From assembly GCA_002841295.1 (NCBI GenBank), contig PHEU01000006.1, positions 1 through 64,000 of the forward strand: a stretch of DNA of 64,000 nucleotides, given 5' to 3'. The DNA comes from Actinobacteria bacterium HGW-Actinobacteria-6 (GTDB taxonomy: Bacteria; Actinomycetota; Coriobacteriia; Anaerosomatales; Anaerosomataceae). This document shows, piece by piece, positions 7,603-38,323 of this stretch; position 1 is the stretch's first letter, and each line of letters starts with the position of its first letter. A program made the translations under genes and the position numbers. The notes beneath the pieces were generated by a model, which saw only the letters and a list, made by a program, of their open reading frames with translations, did no database searches and was not told where the DNA came from.

Positions 7603-8862
7603 TTATGCCGTGCGGGTGCGCTTGAGCAGCGCTACCGCGACGAGGATCGCTGCCATTACGCCGAGCGCCGGCCAAGCCAAGGGCGCCAGGCCTTTCGCCG
7701 AGGACGCGATGCCAGCCCAGTGTGTGAAACCGGCGCCTACGAGCATGCCGGCCACAGCTACGAAGCTGTCGGCATCGCCCTCTGAGCCCATGATGACCTG
7801 GCGGAACGGACAGCCACCAAGCAGCATTGCTGCAAACGTAGCCACGGCCATCGAGGCGAAGTTTCCAAGCGCATCGGTGTGCGCGACCGGCTGGCCCACG
7901 AAGCCAAGGTTGTATTGGCCGAGGAGTATGTTCACGACGGTCGCTCCGATGAGCAGGCCCACAACGCCGAAGAGCAGGTCGTATCGCTTGACGAGGACAG
8001 CGTCGCGGATGCCGCCGATAGAGCAGAAGCGGCTGCGCTGTGCGACGACGCCGACTGCAAGACCAGCCGCAAGCGAGATCCACAGTGATGCGCGCTTTCC
8101 GCCCGGCTGCGGCTTCGCCTTCGTGACCGACTCGGCAGACGCGGCGATCGCCCCGTCGGCGCCTACGATCGAGCCGTCAGCGGCAAGCGTTGCGCCCACA
8201 GGCTTCAGGACCTGCGAGATCTGTCCGTCGGTCTTGAGGAACACGGCCGGGGGCTTGTCTCCCGTGGAGAACGCCCCCTCGGCAGTTTGTGTGGCGAAAT
8301 CAGGCTTCGTGCCGAATGCGCTTACGAGCGCGAAGACTAGCAGCACGATTGCGAGCGTCGGCAGTAGCCAACCCAGCGGCTTGGCGATGTTCTTCGCTCG
8401 GCCAAGGTTGAAGCCGCGCTTGAGGAAGACGATGCCAACGACTACGCCGGCTACGATGCCGAGGATGCCCCAGAGCGCATTCAAGTCACCGCCGCCCAGT
8501 CGCAGCCAGGCGCGGACGGTGCACCCCAAGAAGATGAGTGCCGAGGTCATGAAGATGAACCCGAGCACAAAGCGCAGCAGCGGATTGCTGCCACCGCGCG
8601 GGCGGAATTCGCGGGTGAGAATCGCTGCGCCCAAGGCTCCAAGGATGATGCCGATGATCTCCGGCCGTATGTAGGCGACTGCCCCCTGGCCGGTCGTTCC
8701 CCCGACGAAGAATCCCGTGATGTCTCGCAAGAAACATGCGATGCACAGCCCCATGTTGCCTGGATTACCTTGGCTCACGAGCCATGCTGCTACTGCACCG
8801 ATGAACAGCCCGGCACCCCCAAGAATCCAGGCGGTTGGACCAACCATCCGACGCTTTCCCAT
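7603..8862 (-). CDS. yedE: YedE-family selenium/sulfur-compound membrane transporter
   Basis: Polytopic membrane protein (419 aa, about ten hydrophobic segments) of the YeeE/YedE family. Family landmarks are GCTVRAWLRL in the first half, QRSRFCSIGGIRD, and GGCPFRQVI in the second half; these cysteine-bearing motifs line the pore in related thiosulfate transporters. A polar loop of about 75 residues (about 190-265) separates the halves. ATG at 8862 is preferred over a longer frame because GGGGG lies just upstream. Members of this architecture with TusA/YedF and DUF3343 neighbours are annotated as putative selenium transporters; direct transport of selenium is not shown by sequence. It leads a four-gene operon. 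Confidence 0.85.
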   Translation of the reverse strand: MGKRRMVGPTAWILGGAGLFIGAVAAWLVSQGNPGNMGLCIACFLRDITGFFVGGTTGQGAVAYIRPEIIGIILGALGAAILTREFRPRGGSNPLLRFVLGFIFMTSALIFLGCTVRAWLRLGGGDLNALWGILGIVAGVVVGIVFLKRGFNLGRAKNIAKPLGWLLPTLAIVLLVFALVSAFGTKPDFATQTAEGAFSTGDKPPAVFLKTDGQISQVLKPVGATLAADGSIVGADGAIAASAESVTKAKPQPGGKRASLWISLAAGLAVGVVAQRSRFCSIGGIRDAVLVKRYDLLFGVVGLLIGATVVNILLGQYNLGFVGQPVAHTDALGNFASMAVATFAAMLLGGCPFRQVIMGSEGDADSFVAVAGMLVGAGFTHWAGIASSAKGLAPLAWPALGVMAAILVAVALLKRTRTA

Positions 8863-9000
8863 GAAACCCCCTACAGTCGATAGTACGAATAACCCCCGCT
8901 TATAGTGAGTATCAGAGTAACAGAATGTCAACCGCAATTTGTTGTGAAAGAGAGGGCGTCGCAGGGCAGAGAGCGGATTCTTGAGGACGGGCAGCTCCTG
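8863..9000 (-). promoter_or_regulatory. Upstream region of the yedE operon with candidate promoter
   Basis: AT-richer stretch between pafC and yedE. On the minus strand a perfect TTGACA lies at 8926-8931 and a TATAAG at 8899-8904, but their spacing (21 bases) is too long for a standard sigma-70 promoter, so the exact pair is uncertain. The region contains no open frame. Confidence 0.35.
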
Positions 9001-30296: not shown

Positions 30297-30368
30297 TACC
30301 GCACAGGCACCGCGCGGGCGCCCCGGATGGGGGCGCCTCGCGCATCGCTTGATACGACAGGGGTGACT

Positions 30369-31766
30369 ATGGCGTCGAGCGGCTCAAGTTTGGCGGATCG
30401 CGTTCCGCCACATAACCTTGAGGCTGAGCAGTCTCTGCTCGGCTCGATGTTCCTCTCTTCAGAGGCCGTCGAGACATGTCTCGACGCGGTGGACGACGCT
30501 GACTTCTCGCGTTCCGCGCACTCGAAGATCTTCGCCGCCATCAAGTACCTCTATGGCCGAGGCGAACCTGTCGATCAGATCACCGTTGCCGATCGCCTGC
30601 TGGCGACCGGCGATCTCGACGCAGCCGGCGGCAAGCCGTACCTGCTGGATATCACCGGCATGGTTCCAACCGCCGCGAACGCTATCTACTACGCCGAGAT
30701 CGTGAAGCGCACGTCGCTGCTGCGTCAGCTTATTGAAGCGGGCACCAGCATCGTTGCCATCGGCTATGAGAACCCCGACGACATCGGCGCCGTCATCGAA
30801 CAGGCCGAGAAGCGCATCTTCGACGTCACCAACAAGCGCGTCTCGAACAACTTCCGCCCGCTCGACGAACTCATGAAGTCCGGCTTTGAGCAGATCGAGA
30901 AGCTCTACGATCGCAAGGAGCACATCACCGGCGTGCCCACGGGTTTCCCGGACCTGGACAAGATCCTCGCCGGGCTTCACGCAGGCGACCTCATCATCCT
31001 CGCGGCCCGTCCCTCGGTCGGCAAGACGGCGTTCGCGCTCAACATGGCCGTGAACGCGGCAAAAGAGGGCTATCCAACAGCCGTATTCTCACTGGAAATG
31101 TCGAGCGACCAGCTCGTCCAGCGCATCTTGTGCGCCGAGGCGAGAATCGACTCTCAGCGCCTTCGCACCGGCTACCTGAACGACAGCGACTGGCCGTCGA
31201 TCATGCAGGCGATGGGTCGTCTCGGCGCAGCACCGTTGTGGGTTGACGACACCCCCGCCATCTCGATCCTCGAGGTGCGAGCCAAGGCACGGCGTCTCTT
31301 CCGCGACAAGCCCCAGGGACTCATCATCGTCGACTACCTGCAGCTCATGCAGCCACAGAACCGACGTTCCGAGAACCGCCAGGTCGAAATCGCCGAGATC
31401 AGCCGTGGCCTCAAGATCCTCGCGAAGGAACTCCACGTCCCGATCGTTGCGCTCTCGCAGCTGTCGCGTGCGGTCGAGCAGCGGACCAGCAAGCGGCCGA
31501 TGCTCTCCGATCTGCGTGAATCAGGCGCGATCGAACAAGACGCCGACGTTGTCATGTTCATCCATCGCGAGACCATCGGTAGCGGTGGCGGCGGAGGTAG
31601 TCACGACGACTTCGGAGGCGGCGAAGACCGGACCGAGGGCATGCCCGCAAAGGGCGAAGCTGAAATCATCGTTGCGAAGCATCGAAATGGCCCCGTCGAC
31701 AGCTGCTACGTGGCCTTCCTCGATCGCTATACCAAGTTCGCGCCGCTCGCCAAGAACGTGCCGTAG
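30369..31766 (+). CDS. dnaB: Replicative DNA helicase
   Basis: A 465-aa DnaB. The N-terminal domain starts PPHNLEAEQSLLGSM. The RecA-like domain has Walker A ARPSVGKTAF (near 216) and Walker B LIIVDYLQLM (near 320), then the LSQLSRAVEQR motif. A glycine-rich loop (SGGGGGSHDD) sits in the C-terminal part, and no intein is present. ATG 30369 is preferred to a GTG two codons upstream. It closes the ribosomal block. Confidence 0.96.
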   Translation: MASSGSSLADRVPPHNLEAEQSLLGSMFLSSEAVETCLDAVDDADFSRSAHSKIFAAIKYLYGRGEPVDQITVADRLLATGDLDAAGGKPYLLDITGMVPTAANAIYYAEIVKRTSLLRQLIEAGTSIVAIGYENPDDIGAVIEQAEKRIFDVTNKRVSNNFRPLDELMKSGFEQIEKLYDRKEHITGVPTGFPDLDKILAGLHAGDLIILAARPSVGKTAFALNMAVNAAKEGYPTAVFSLEMSSDQLVQRILCAEARIDSQRLRTGYLNDSDWPSIMQAMGRLGAAPLWVDDTPAISILEVRAKARRLFRDKPQGLIIVDYLQLMQPQNRRSENRQVEIAEISRGLKILAKELHVPIVALSQLSRAVEQRTSKRPMLSDLRESGAIEQDADVVMFIHRETIGSGGGGGSHDDFGGGEDRTEGMPAKGEAEIIVAKHRNGPVDSCYVAFLDRYTKFAPLAKNVP

Positions 31767-31782
31767 GCACCACCCGGCATCT

Positions 31783-32025
31783 CTAGGACTTCAGCAGCCG
31801 ATCGAACTCTTTTGGATTCCAGCCGACCATGGATTGATCGCCGACCATGATGACCGGCACGCCGTACTGCCCTGTCGCGGCTACCATGCGCTTGAGCCCT
31901 GCGCGATCCTGGGCGACATCCACATCCGTGAATTGCACGTTCTTCTCAGCGAAGTAACTCTTCGCGTGTGTGCAGTACGGTCAAGTCTTAGTCGTGAATA
32001 TGGTGACGCGTTTCTGCTCGGCCAT
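31783..32025 (-). CDS. Uxx-star family glutaredoxin-like selenoprotein (in-frame UGA = Sec15)
   Basis: An 80-aa frame on the minus strand with a single internal TGA (31981-31983) at codon 15. Reading it as selenocysteine gives a thioredoxin-fold protein, TKT-U-PYC-THAKSYF..., with Sec in place of the first Cys of the glutaredoxin CPYC site, a cis-proline segment YGVPVIMVGD (near 54) and a C-terminal helix WNPKEFDRLL. Both flanks of the TGA are clearly glutaredoxin, and a SECIS-like hairpin follows it. GGAGGTG precedes the ATG. This matches the Uxx-star group of small glutaredoxin-like selenoproteins. Conventional translation would give only 14 residues. Substrate unknown; a thiol/selenol oxidoreductase role is expected. 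Confidence 0.88.
31934..31974 (-). promoter_or_regulatory. Bacterial SECIS-like element
   Basis: On the minus strand, 15 bases after the UGA, GCGAAG/CTTCGC forms a perfect 6-bp stem (31949-31965) with loop AGTTA, which has G-U at loop positions 2-3 as SelB-binding bacterial SECIS elements require. A lower stem TGCAC/GTGCA (31970-31974 with 31934-31938) closes the structure. The element lies within the coding sequence, as in bacteria generally. Confidence 0.75.
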
Positions 32026-32150
32026 CAGGCACCTCCGTTGCGGTGGACGCATGGTACCTGCCCACGCCGGACTCCCTCGTAACGACTAGCAGGCGACAAC
32101 GCACGCTCATCGTGGTATGAACCTGTCGTGACTCCAACGAAAGGACTTCC

Positions 32151-33539
32151 ATGACCGAGCAGCGGTACGACGTCGTCATCGTGGGCGCCGGACCGGCGGG
32201 CATCTTCGCCGCGATCGAACTCATTCGATCAGGCCGAGCCGACCGAATCCTCATGGCGGAGCGCGGCAAGCCCATCGCGAAGCGCAAGTGCCCCGCCAAG
32301 CAGACGCACTGCATCGGTTGCGAGACATGCGCGATCATGACCGGTTGGGGCGGCGCAGGAGCGTTTTCCGACGGCAAGCTCACTCTCACGACCGAGGTCG
32401 GCGGCTGGCTTGGCGACTACGTGGGCGCCGACAATCTCGGGCGGCTGATCGACGACGCCGACAAGATCTGGCTCGAGTTCGGCGCGACCACCGACGTACA
32501 CTCTCCCGACGCCGAGACCGCAGCGCGGCTCTCCCGCGAGGCAACCCTTGCCGAGATGCGCCTCATTCCTATGCGCATCCGTCACATCGGAACCGACCGC
32601 TCACCCGCAGTGCTTCAGGCGATGCACGATTACCTTGCCGAGAGCGGCGTCGAGGTGCGCCTCTCATCTGCGGTCTCCCGAATCCTCGTGGACAACGGCC
32701 ACGTCGAAGGCGTTGAGTTCGTCGACGGTTCCAGAGTCAGCGCGAAGGCGGTCATCGCGGCTCCCGGTCGTGACGGCGCCGACTGGCTTACCGAGCAGGC
32801 GAACGAGCTCGGCATCGGGCTCGTGAACAACGCGGTCGACATCGGCGTGCGCGTCGAGGTCCCGGCGCCGGTGATGCAGCCGCTTACGGATGCGCTTTAC
32901 GAAGCCAAGCTCATCTACTACTCGAAGCAGTTCGGCGATCAGGTCCGCACATTCTGCATGAACCCCTACGGTGAGGTCACCACTGAATCGTACGGCGACA
33001 TCGTCACCGTGAACGGCCATTCCTTTGCCGAGGAGAAGACCGCCAACACCAACTTCGCGGTTCTCGTAAGCCAGAGCTTCACGCACCCGTTCCACGAGCC
33101 GATCACGTACGGGCGCTCGATCGCGGGACTCGCGAACCTGCTCGGCGAAGGCATCATCGTGCAGCGCCTCGGCGACCTTCGTCTCGGCCGGCGCTCTACA
33201 GCAAAGCGCATCGCCGAGTCGGTCGTCGTCCCTACTATGCCGCAGGCGACTCCCGGCGACCTGAGCTTCGTGCTCCCGTACCGCCACCTCGCTGACATCC
33301 TCGAGTTCCTGGATGCGCTCGACGAACTTGCCCCGGGAGTCGCGGGCGACGGAACGCTGCTTTACGGTGTCGAGGTCAAGTTCTACTCGTCGCGCCTGGA
33401 GCTCGATTCGCACCTGCAGAGCCAGGTCGCGGGGCTCTACGCCGTCGGGGACGGCGCGGGCGTGACTCGTGGGCTCATCCAGGCGAGCGCGAGCGGTCTT
33501 GTGGCGGCACGCGCGGTGATAGCAGGTGGAGTGGGGTAG
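32151..33539 (+). CDS. FAD-dependent oxidoreductase (COG2509-like)
   Basis: A 462-aa flavoprotein. The N-terminal Rossmann motif is VVIVGAGPAGIFAA, and a second FAD contact GLYAVGDGAGVTRGL lies near residue 435. A cysteine-rich loop CPAKQTHCIGCETC (about residues 47-60) followed by GWGGAGAFSDGK is typical of this uncharacterised dehydrogenase family; the loop could hold a redox disulfide or metal. It is divergent from the selenoprotein gene and shares its 125-base upstream region. The substrate is unknown. Confidence 0.8.
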   Translation: MTEQRYDVVIVGAGPAGIFAAIELIRSGRADRILMAERGKPIAKRKCPAKQTHCIGCETCAIMTGWGGAGAFSDGKLTLTTEVGGWLGDYVGADNLGRLIDDADKIWLEFGATTDVHSPDAETAARLSREATLAEMRLIPMRIRHIGTDRSPAVLQAMHDYLAESGVEVRLSSAVSRILVDNGHVEGVEFVDGSRVSAKAVIAAPGRDGADWLTEQANELGIGLVNNAVDIGVRVEVPAPVMQPLTDALYEAKLIYYSKQFGDQVRTFCMNPYGEVTTESYGDIVTVNGHSFAEEKTANTNFAVLVSQSFTHPFHEPITYGRSIAGLANLLGEGIIVQRLGDLRLGRRSTAKRIAESVVVPTMPQATPGDLSFVLPYRHLADILEFLDALDELAPGVAGDGTLLYGVEVKFYSSRLELDSHLQSQVAGLYAVGDGAGVTRGLIQASASGLVAARAVIAGGVG

Positions 33540-35562: not shown

Positions 35563-36573
35563 ATGATCAAGGTCGCCGTCTGGGGTACGGGCATGATGGG
35601 ACAGGGTTTGCTCGGCTATATCCTGGACCGGCCCAAAGACATCGAACTCGTAGGTGTCATCGATAGGCACCCCGAGAAGCATGGTCGCACCGTCGGCGAG
35701 GTCACCGGTCGGGAGTGCGACATTCCCGTCACCGCCGATTCCGCAGCGGTCCTCGCGCTCAAGCCCGACGTCGTGTGCATTCTCACCGCGAGCAACCTGC
35801 ATCAGATAACCGACCAGGTCGAGGCCGCCCTCAAGGCCGAGGCAGACGTCATCTGCATCGCCGAGACCCTCGCGTACCCGTGGGCGACCGACCCCGCATG
35901 GGCCGAGCGGATCGACGCGCTCGCCCGCGAGCATGGCGTGAGCGTGCTTGGCACAGGCGTGAACCCCGGCTTCGTTCTCGACGCGCTGCCGATCCTGCTC
36001 TCCTCGGCGTGTCTGCACATCGAGCGCATCGAAGCTGCACGCATCAACGACCTCTCGCCGTTCGGGCCGACCGTTATGGAGAGCCAGGGCGTGGGTACCA
36101 CCGTTGAGCAGTTCAACGCGGGTATCGCCGACGGATCGATCGTGGGTCACATCGGCTTCCAAGAATCCGTCGGGCTCATCGCGTACGCCCTTGGCTGGGA
36201 GATCGACGAGGTCGTCGAGACCCGTGAGCCGATCGTATCAACGGTCGAGCGCGAGACCCCGCACGTGCACGTTGCTCCCGGTGACGTCGCGGGTTGCCGT
36301 CACATCGCCCGTGCATACAGCAAAGGCGAACTCAAGATCGAGCTCGTGCACCCGCAGCAGATCCACCCCGAGCTCGAAGGTATCGAGACCGGCGACTACA
36401 TCACGATCGTCGGGGAGCCGAATATCAGCTTCCACGATGGTCCCGAGATCCCGGGTGGCAAGGGAACCTACGCGAGCACCGGCAACTACATCCCGCTCAT
36501 CGGTGCGGCACCTGCGGGCATCGTGACCGTCGTCGACCTGCCGATCCCGCGTTTCTGGGCACCGACCGTCTAG
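35563..36573 (+). CDS. ord: 2,4-diaminopentanoate dehydrogenase
   Basis: A 336-aa NAD(P)-dependent enzyme with an N-terminal Rossmann fold (VAVWGTGMMGQGLLG) and a dihydrodipicolinate-reductase-like C-terminal half containing GTGVNPGFVLD. It oxidatively deaminates (2R,4S)-2,4-diaminopentanoate to 2-amino-4-oxopentanoate and ammonia. It is first in the order ord-ortA-ortB-oraS-oraE, the same as in Clostridium sticklandii. ATG follows AAGGAGTTCTC. Its reduced cofactor feeds the cell's fermentative or respiratory redox balance. Confidence 0.92.
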   Translation: MIKVAVWGTGMMGQGLLGYILDRPKDIELVGVIDRHPEKHGRTVGEVTGRECDIPVTADSAAVLALKPDVVCILTASNLHQITDQVEAALKAEADVICIAETLAYPWATDPAWAERIDALAREHGVSVLGTGVNPGFVLDALPILLSSACLHIERIEAARINDLSPFGPTVMESQGVGTTVEQFNAGIADGSIVGHIGFQESVGLIAYALGWEIDEVVETREPIVSTVERETPHVHVAPGDVAGCRHIARAYSKGELKIELVHPQQIHPELEGIETGDYITIVGEPNISFHDGPEIPGGKGTYASTGNYIPLIGAAPAGIVTVVDLPIPRFWAPTV

Positions 36574-36585
36574 GAGATTCGCATC

Positions 36586-36912
36586 ATGGCTGACATCACG
36601 CGCTGCAGCGTAGGCGACTGGGTGGAGGTCGAGCGAGTGTTGCTCGAGCCCGCCGACCGATCGACGAATCTGCCCGAGGAGACCGCTGCGCAGCCGCTGC
36701 GCATGTGGGTGAAGGGATTCGCCCGTTCGGCGGCATCACTCGGCGATGAGGTCACCGTCGAGACGATGACCGGTCGCTCAGTGACCGGGATGCTCACCGA
36801 CGTGAACCCCGGCTACATGCACACGTTCGGGCGTCCGACGCCCGAGCTCACGCACGTTGGCCGAGACCTGCGCGATCGCGTTGCCGCATACCGCGCGAAG
36901 GCGGGTGAGTAA
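36586..36912 (+). CDS. ortA: 2-amino-4-oxopentanoate thiolase, subunit OrtA
   Basis: A 108-aa protein with the OrtA-type core VLLEPADRSTNLPEETAAQP, a short segment in which Glu and Asn are family-conserved, and a GYMHTFGRP motif in the second half. With OrtB it performs CoA-dependent thiolysis of 2-amino-4-oxopentanoate to alanine and acetyl-CoA. ATG is 12 bases after ord. Confidence 0.9.
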   Translation: MADITRCSVGDWVEVERVLLEPADRSTNLPEETAAQPLRMWVKGFARSAASLGDEVTVETMTGRSVTGMLTDVNPGYMHTFGRPTPELTHVGRDLRDRVAAYRAKAGE

Positions 36913-36913
36913 C

Positions 36914-38323
36914 GTGGCCGGAAAGACCGAAGCGATCATGGCCCGCAAGGGCGAGATCATGAAGCGTGCGCTCGGTATGGATTACTCGCAGTTCGAGCGC
37001 AGTCCCGTCGCCTTCGATTACGAAGGCATGATGTCCGCGCACGGCTACTCTATCGACGACATTGTCGCCATTCAGCGCGCAGGCGGCGTGGGGCGTACAC
37101 CGCTTCTTGAGCTACGTAACCTCACCGACCTCGTTCGGTCGTACAGCGAGCCCGGCCACGGCGCACGCATCTTCGTGAAGGACGAGGCCGCCAACATGGC
37201 CGGCTCCTTCAAGGACCGCCGCGCGAGCGTGAGCATTCACGTCGCCAAGGAGAAGGGGTATGCGGGCGTCATTGCCGCAACCTCCGGCAACTACGGTGCG
37301 GCCGTCTCAAGTCAGGCGGCGCGCGCGGCCCTCAACTGCATCATCGTGCAGGAGGCGTTCGACTCTCGGCATGTGGGCCAGCCCGAGATCATCGAGAAGT
37401 CGCGCATCTGCGAAGCGTTCGGCGCCGAGGTCATCCAGCTCACCGTAGGTCCCGAGCTCTTCAGCCACATGTTGGAGCTCCTCGACGAGACCGGCTACCT
37501 GGCGGCCTCGCTCTACTCGGCGTTCGGGGTGTCGGGCATCGAGACGCTCGGCTACGAGCTTGCCGAGGAGATGACGGCCGTCACGGGCGCACCTCCAACG
37601 CACGTTGTCGTCACGCATGCCGGCGGCGGCAACACCACCGGAACCGCGCGCGGCCTCAAGCGCGCCGGCGCGAAGACCGAGATCGTGAGCGCCAGCGTCG
37701 ACCTCTCGGGGTTGCATATGGCCAGTGACTCGGACTTCAACCGCAAGAGCTTCACAACGGGTCACACGGGCTTTGGCGTGCCGTTCGCGACGTGGCCCGA
37801 CCGCGCCGACGTGCCGCGCAACGCTGCGCGTGCGCTGCGCTATATGGATCGTTACCTCACCGTGAGTCAGGGCGAGGTCTTCTACGTGACCGAAGCGATG
37901 GCCAAGCTCGAAGGACTCGAGCGCGGCCCGTCCGGCAACACCGCGATGGCAGCCGCTATGTCGCTCGCGCGCGACTTGCCTGTGGACGCCACCGTCGTGG
38001 TGCAGGAGACCGAGTACACCGGTGCCGGCAAGCACCACTGGGCGCAGCTCAACTTCGCGCGTGAGAACGGCGTCGAGGTGCGTGCTGGCGATCCGACCGA
38101 GAACGTTCCGGGCAAGAGCATCATCATCCCCGAGCGGCCCGAGCAGATCCGCGCGAAGGAGATGGACCTCGCCCGTATGCGGAAGAGCTACGTCCGCAAC
38201 GCGCTATCACATGCGCCCGAGGGATACGCGCCCACGAGCGATGACGTCGCGTTCCTGGCCGAGGACACAAACAGCAATCCGGCGACGGTCGAGGAGATCA
38301 TCGCTGCACTCAAGGAGGCGTAG
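36914..38323 (+). CDS. ortB: 2-amino-4-oxopentanoate thiolase, PLP subunit OrtB
   Basis: A 469-aa fold-type II PLP enzyme resembling threonine synthase. The PLP lysine is in NMAGSFKDRRASVS (near residue 99), and the phosphate-binding glycine loop HAGGGNTTGTARG lies near 236. OrtB is much longer than a typical dehydratase and is only found with OrtA. The GTG at 36914 (1 base after ortA) is favoured; an ATG at 36938 is an alternative. The upstream-extended frame is spurious. The product acetyl-CoA allows ATP formation. Confidence 0.9.
   Translation: MAGKTEAIMARKGEIMKRALGMDYSQFERSPVAFDYEGMMSAHGYSIDDIVAIQRAGGVGRTPLLELRNLTDLVRSYSEPGHGARIFVKDEAANMAGSFKDRRASVSIHVAKEKGYAGVIAATSGNYGAAVSSQAARAALNCIIVQEAFDSRHVGQPEIIEKSRICEAFGAEVIQLTVGPELFSHMLELLDETGYLAASLYSAFGVSGIETLGYELAEEMTAVTGAPPTHVVVTHAGGGNTTGTARGLKRAGAKTEIVSASVDLSGLHMASDSDFNRKSFTTGHTGFGVPFATWPDRADVPRNAARALRYMDRYLTVSQGEVFYVTEAMAKLEGLERGPSGNTAMAAAMSLARDLPVDATVVVQETEYTGAGKHHWAQLNFARENGVEVRAGDPTENVPGKSIIIPERPEQIRAKEMDLARMRKSYVRNALSHAPEGYAPTSDDVAFLAEDTNSNPATVEEIIAALKEA

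Follow-up and report, generated by a model that had tools for sequence, protein, structure and literature searches.

A probable UxxC selenocysteine glutaredoxin encoded beside dnaB in an actinobacterial lineage

Introduction

Glutaredoxin selenoproteins with a UxxC active site were described in 2005 from ten Sargasso Sea sequences (PMC1088965) and are included in current lists (PMC9312934, PMC13188914). Here we ask whether a glutaredoxin reading frame interrupted by a TGA in the actinobacterium HGW-Actinobacteria-6 encodes such a protein, or whether the TGA ends translation or is read in some other way. The frame lies in the window, by which we mean the whole analysed stretch of 64,000 nucleotides of contig PHEU01000006.1. 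Standard gene callers would truncate the gene at codon 15.

A glutaredoxin domain extends across the in-frame UGA

The original prediction, a minus-strand glutaredoxin frame in which codon 15 is a lone TGA, agrees with the sequence: 80 codons from ATG to TAG are interrupted by that TGA alone, at the position where CPYC has its first Cys (Table 1). Glutaredoxin sequence is found on both sides of the TGA, as had been claimed, with the PF00462 match (58.8 bits, cut-off 22.9) running across it from residue 7 to residue 64 of the protein, and the ribosome-binding site noted ahead of the ATG is likewise present. When all single-TGA-interrupted frames of the window were ranked by codon-usage score, this frame came first on both sides of the TGA; the other TGA-interrupted frames ranked lower, no supporting evidence was found for them, and they were dropped. 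The predicted structure of the protein (pLDDT 88) has the expected order, beta-alpha-beta-alpha-beta-beta-alpha, with helix 1 beginning at the active site. Judging from the sequence of this gene and of its homologues, we consider it very probable that the gene encodes a small glutaredoxin with selenocysteine as the N-terminal residue of its active site (UPYC). Elsewhere in the window, positions 35563-38323 hold genes of ornithine degradation (2,4-diaminopentanoate dehydrogenase, OrtA and OrtB).

Table 1. Features of the window that bear on the glutaredoxin gene
Feature	Position	Strand	Basis
Probable glutaredoxin selenoprotein gene of 80 codons, UGA at codon 15 (Sec15), ending in TAG	31783..32025	-	Frame, models, homologues, predicted fold
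In-frame UGA replacing the first active-site Cys (UPYC)	31981..31983	-	Aligned UGA/TGC/TGT in homologues
bSECIS-like hairpin starting 15 nt past the UGA: stem GCGAAG/CTTCGC, loop AGUUA (second loop base G)	31949..31965	-	Nucleotide invariance across 11 UGA loci
Ribosome-binding site GGAGG, 6 nt upstream of the ATG	32032..32036	-	Also in same-genus relatives
dnaB replicative helicase, convergent neighbour	30327..31766	+	Adjoins the gene, conserved
FAD-dependent oxidoreductase (PF07992, PF21688), divergent neighbour	32151..33539	+	Adjacency conserved in both Sec and Cys loci
YedE family putative selenium transporter	7603..8937	-	369.7 bits, cut-off 200; selenium context in the window

UGA and Cys codons exchange at a conserved locus

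Among 60 relatives, 10 carry UGA at the same codon with no other stop (60-82% identity), and 14 others, more distant than these, have an orthologue in which codon 15 is TGC or TGT (Cys). The alignment of codon 15 that had been proposed as a check has UGA (11 loci) or TGC/TGT (14 loci) in the same column, and none of the intact UGA homologues stops at codon 14 or shows decay beyond the UGA. In a set of 80 loci from named genomes, every UGA locus comes from a record labelled Actinobacteria, Actinomycetes, Coriobacteriia or Anaerosomatales, and the remaining loci have Cys. Where the contig is long enough, the glutaredoxin gene of Sec and Cys genomes lies, with few exceptions, between dnaB and the FAD-dependent oxidoreductase gene; because this location is shared, the Sec and Cys forms are positional orthologues. 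Two to three Sec/Cys changes are needed on the neighbour-gene tree, of which the starred branches force only one; the locus may thus have changed once or several times, in either direction. In one genome (G036) the Cys-type homologue (L042) has Arg at both active-site Cys positions (TRPWR) and is probably decaying; no selA match was found in that genome.

If the TGA were a genuine stop, the locus would be a pseudogene of a Cys-type glutaredoxin, produced by a recent nonsense mutation or by a sequencing error. That the gene is dispensable follows from its loss in several relatives: of the 14 tested relatives without a good match, 13 show no glutaredoxin match in the interval from dnaB to the FAD gene, and the remaining one (G018) retains a relic at this place from which approximately codons 5-55, including the UGA and the hairpin, are deleted. 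However, 11 genomes share the TGA at this codon, with synonymous distances between this gene and its UGA relatives of about 0.75 to 2.9, and the sequence downstream of it has no further stop and a median dN/dS of 0.20 (0.21 without the hairpin), compared to 0.29 upstream. Since dN/dS is no higher after the UGA than before it, the pattern is unlike that of a truncated gene; by this measure the post-UGA sequence is under purifying selection. With selA, selB and selD also present in the genome, a pseudogene is highly improbable. The G018 relic lies at about 1296-1480 of L157, and the same gap holds a frame that by eye is CoA-binding-like.

The hairpin past the UGA is conserved among UGA loci

The original prediction also included a 6-bp hairpin 15 nt past the UGA, with a G in its loop and an adjoining lower stem. 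These elements are all present in the window sequence, where the 6-bp stem is perfect and the lower stem has 2 bp, but the lower stem varies among relatives, and in a single sequence the hairpin does not exceed chance, because its folding z-score is only -0.81 and, when the peptide is recoded at random with synonymous codons, 33% of the resulting sequences have a perfect stem of 6 bp or more. For the same reasons, single-sequence folding was not used as support for a SECIS element.

Comparison of the loci gives a different result. The 17 bases GCGAAG-AG[G/T]TA-CTTCGC are common to 11/11 UGA loci, with one loop base differing and the stem itself invariant, whereas the Cys loci lack the hairpin sequence and use other codons there (e.g., GCC AAG CGC TAC CTG). 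Across the 11 UGA loci, hairpin codons +6 to +10 show zero synonymous variation, and mean codon entropy is 0.26 for the six hairpin codons vs. 1.03 elsewhere. The base immediately beyond the stem, at the wobble position of codon +11, varies 5/3/3. The hairpin Arg is encoded by AGG in 9/9 cases, even though AGG makes up 7.6% of Arg codons. The conservation of the hairpin among UGA loci, unlike the hairpin in a single sequence, is beyond chance; shared ancestry could account for part of the invariance, although other codons of the same loci vary.

Selenium machinery and an unusual tRNA-Sec

A search for selA, selB and selD, which had been suggested as a check, found all three in the same genome above their cut-offs (608.5, 372.7 and 371.4 bits, respectively). 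The selD gene carries an in-frame UGA of its own (...KSGU...) in an intact frame, and the three genes, together with a tRNA-Sec match, are clustered in about 9 kb of contig C63. Overall, selA is present in 48 of the 61 genomes searched. As for the yedE-tusA-DUF3343 operon that had been proposed in the window, YedE was confirmed by its model and TusA is plausible but below cut-off, whereas DUF3343 received no confirmation from an NCBIfam model. The Sec genes, the UGA/Cys homologues and the lack of decay downstream of the UGA support the selenoprotein reading. Decoding of the UGA as another residue, such as Cys or Trp, through suppression or an altered genetic code is scarcely credible: the identity of the residue is not given by sequence alone and the tRNA-Sec of this assembly looks damaged, but exchange with Cys at a redox-active position is the typical Sec/Cys pattern, selA, selB and selD are present, and the hairpin is specific to UGA loci.

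The search for selC, the tRNA-Sec gene, had a mixed outcome. The locus (G000:C63:47926-48015, or L154:101-190; anticodon UCA) scores 53.5 bits with the RF01852 model, above the gathering score of 47, but its T loop is shortened in this assembly to 4 nt (UUCU) vs. 7 nt (UUCGAUU) in relatives. Three bases (GAT) are missing against 6/6 aligned relatives, and the remaining arms are intact. ARAGORN did not call the tRNA-Sec of this assembly, whereas it recognised the genes of the tested relatives. The short T loop may be an assembly error, a recently damaged copy whose second gene is unassembled, or an odd but working real variant. With completeness of the assembly at 95% and two tRNA-Sec genes in some of the relatives, there may be an assembly error or an additional copy. 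It appears quite unlikely that the three bases are truly absent and that UGA decoding persists nonetheless, with both the glutaredoxin and selD depending on a tRNA-Sec whose T loop has 4 nt. In three genomes (G005, G018 and G039) there is more than one strong tRNA-Sec match, which suggests tRNA-Sec duplication.

The same tRNA raises the possibility that the gene is a selenoprotein gene of the lineage but that decoding has been lost in this organism, its only tRNA-Sec being short of three T-loop bases. The deletion is clean against the six aligned relatives and no second tRNA-Sec was found in the assembly, as such a loss would have it, but the glutaredoxin frame, the hairpin and the selD UGA frame are all intact, and we regard the loss of decoding as unlikely.

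Proposed mechanism

For the selenocysteine glutaredoxin, the most likely course, which follows from what is established for Sec insertion in bacteria and for glutaredoxins, is that SelB bearing Sec-tRNA would bind the hairpin and insert Sec at the UGA, that Sec15 would act as the nucleophile attacking a substrate disulfide or oxidised thiol, and that Cys18 would resolve the selenenylsulfide. Thioredoxin reductase, rather than glutathione, is the likely electron donor, because the C-terminal part of the protein is GW-x-P-x-EF and not the GG-x-D region, no GCS2-type ligase was found in the genome (GCS2 being the sole glutathione-synthesis family searched), and a thioredoxin reductase was found there. 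The GG-x-D region is typical of glutathione-using glutaredoxins. The C-terminal region of NrdH redoxins is presumably related to that of the present protein, which would also suggest thioredoxin reductase as the donor. NrdH redoxins (TIGR02194; PDB 1h75, 1r7h) are of similar size, but the protein scores 41.8 bits with their model vs. a cut-off of 85.75, and no link of the glutaredoxin to ribonucleotide reductase was seen.

Family placement

The label Uxx-star, under which the protein had been predicted, did not hold. The (seleno)proteins of the UXX-star families are likewise small and glutaredoxin-like and have Sec in the corresponding position, but the present protein falls below the cut-offs of all their models (60.4 bits vs. 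66 for NF041212, 48.7 vs. 72 for NF041114, 35.2 vs. 100 for NF041211, and 31.6 vs. 97 for a further subfamily), and its UPYC retains the resolving Cys, an ordinary UxxC motif; we therefore rejected this filing. The best-scoring curated NCBIfam model is TIGR02196 (YruB family), which matches over the whole length with 82.6 bits, under its cut-off of 88.55; the TIGR02196-type selenoprotein listed in PMC9312934 has UxxT, vs. UPYC here. Being below both the UXX-star and the YruB cut-offs, the protein is placed as a UxxC glutaredoxin, and it shows several marks of the selenocysteine form of these: a domain across the UGA, a UGA/Cys column, a conserved hairpin, and selA, selB and selD in the genome.

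In common with the known UxxC Sec glutaredoxins (PMC1088965, PMC9312934, PMC13188914), it has the PF00462 domain with, very probably, Sec for the first active-site Cys and the resolving Cys kept, and a SECIS-like hairpin past the UGA whose apical loop contains G. Unlike them, it belongs to a Coriobacteriia / Anaerosomatales-type actinobacterial lineage, has a conserved place beside dnaB, and is closest to a YruB-type model, not glutaredoxin 3.

Discussion

UxxC Sec glutaredoxins are already known from other bacteria, and the present gene extends them, with good support, to a new bacterial group; our literature search found no report naming glutaredoxin selenoproteins in Coriobacteriia. The lineage-specific selenoprotein that it contributes scores under the curated cut-offs of its nearest models. 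Within one bacterial order, the same locus with the same neighbours carries a Sec form, a Cys form, a relic or nothing, a clean natural comparison that is useful for testing why a redoxin gains or loses Sec.
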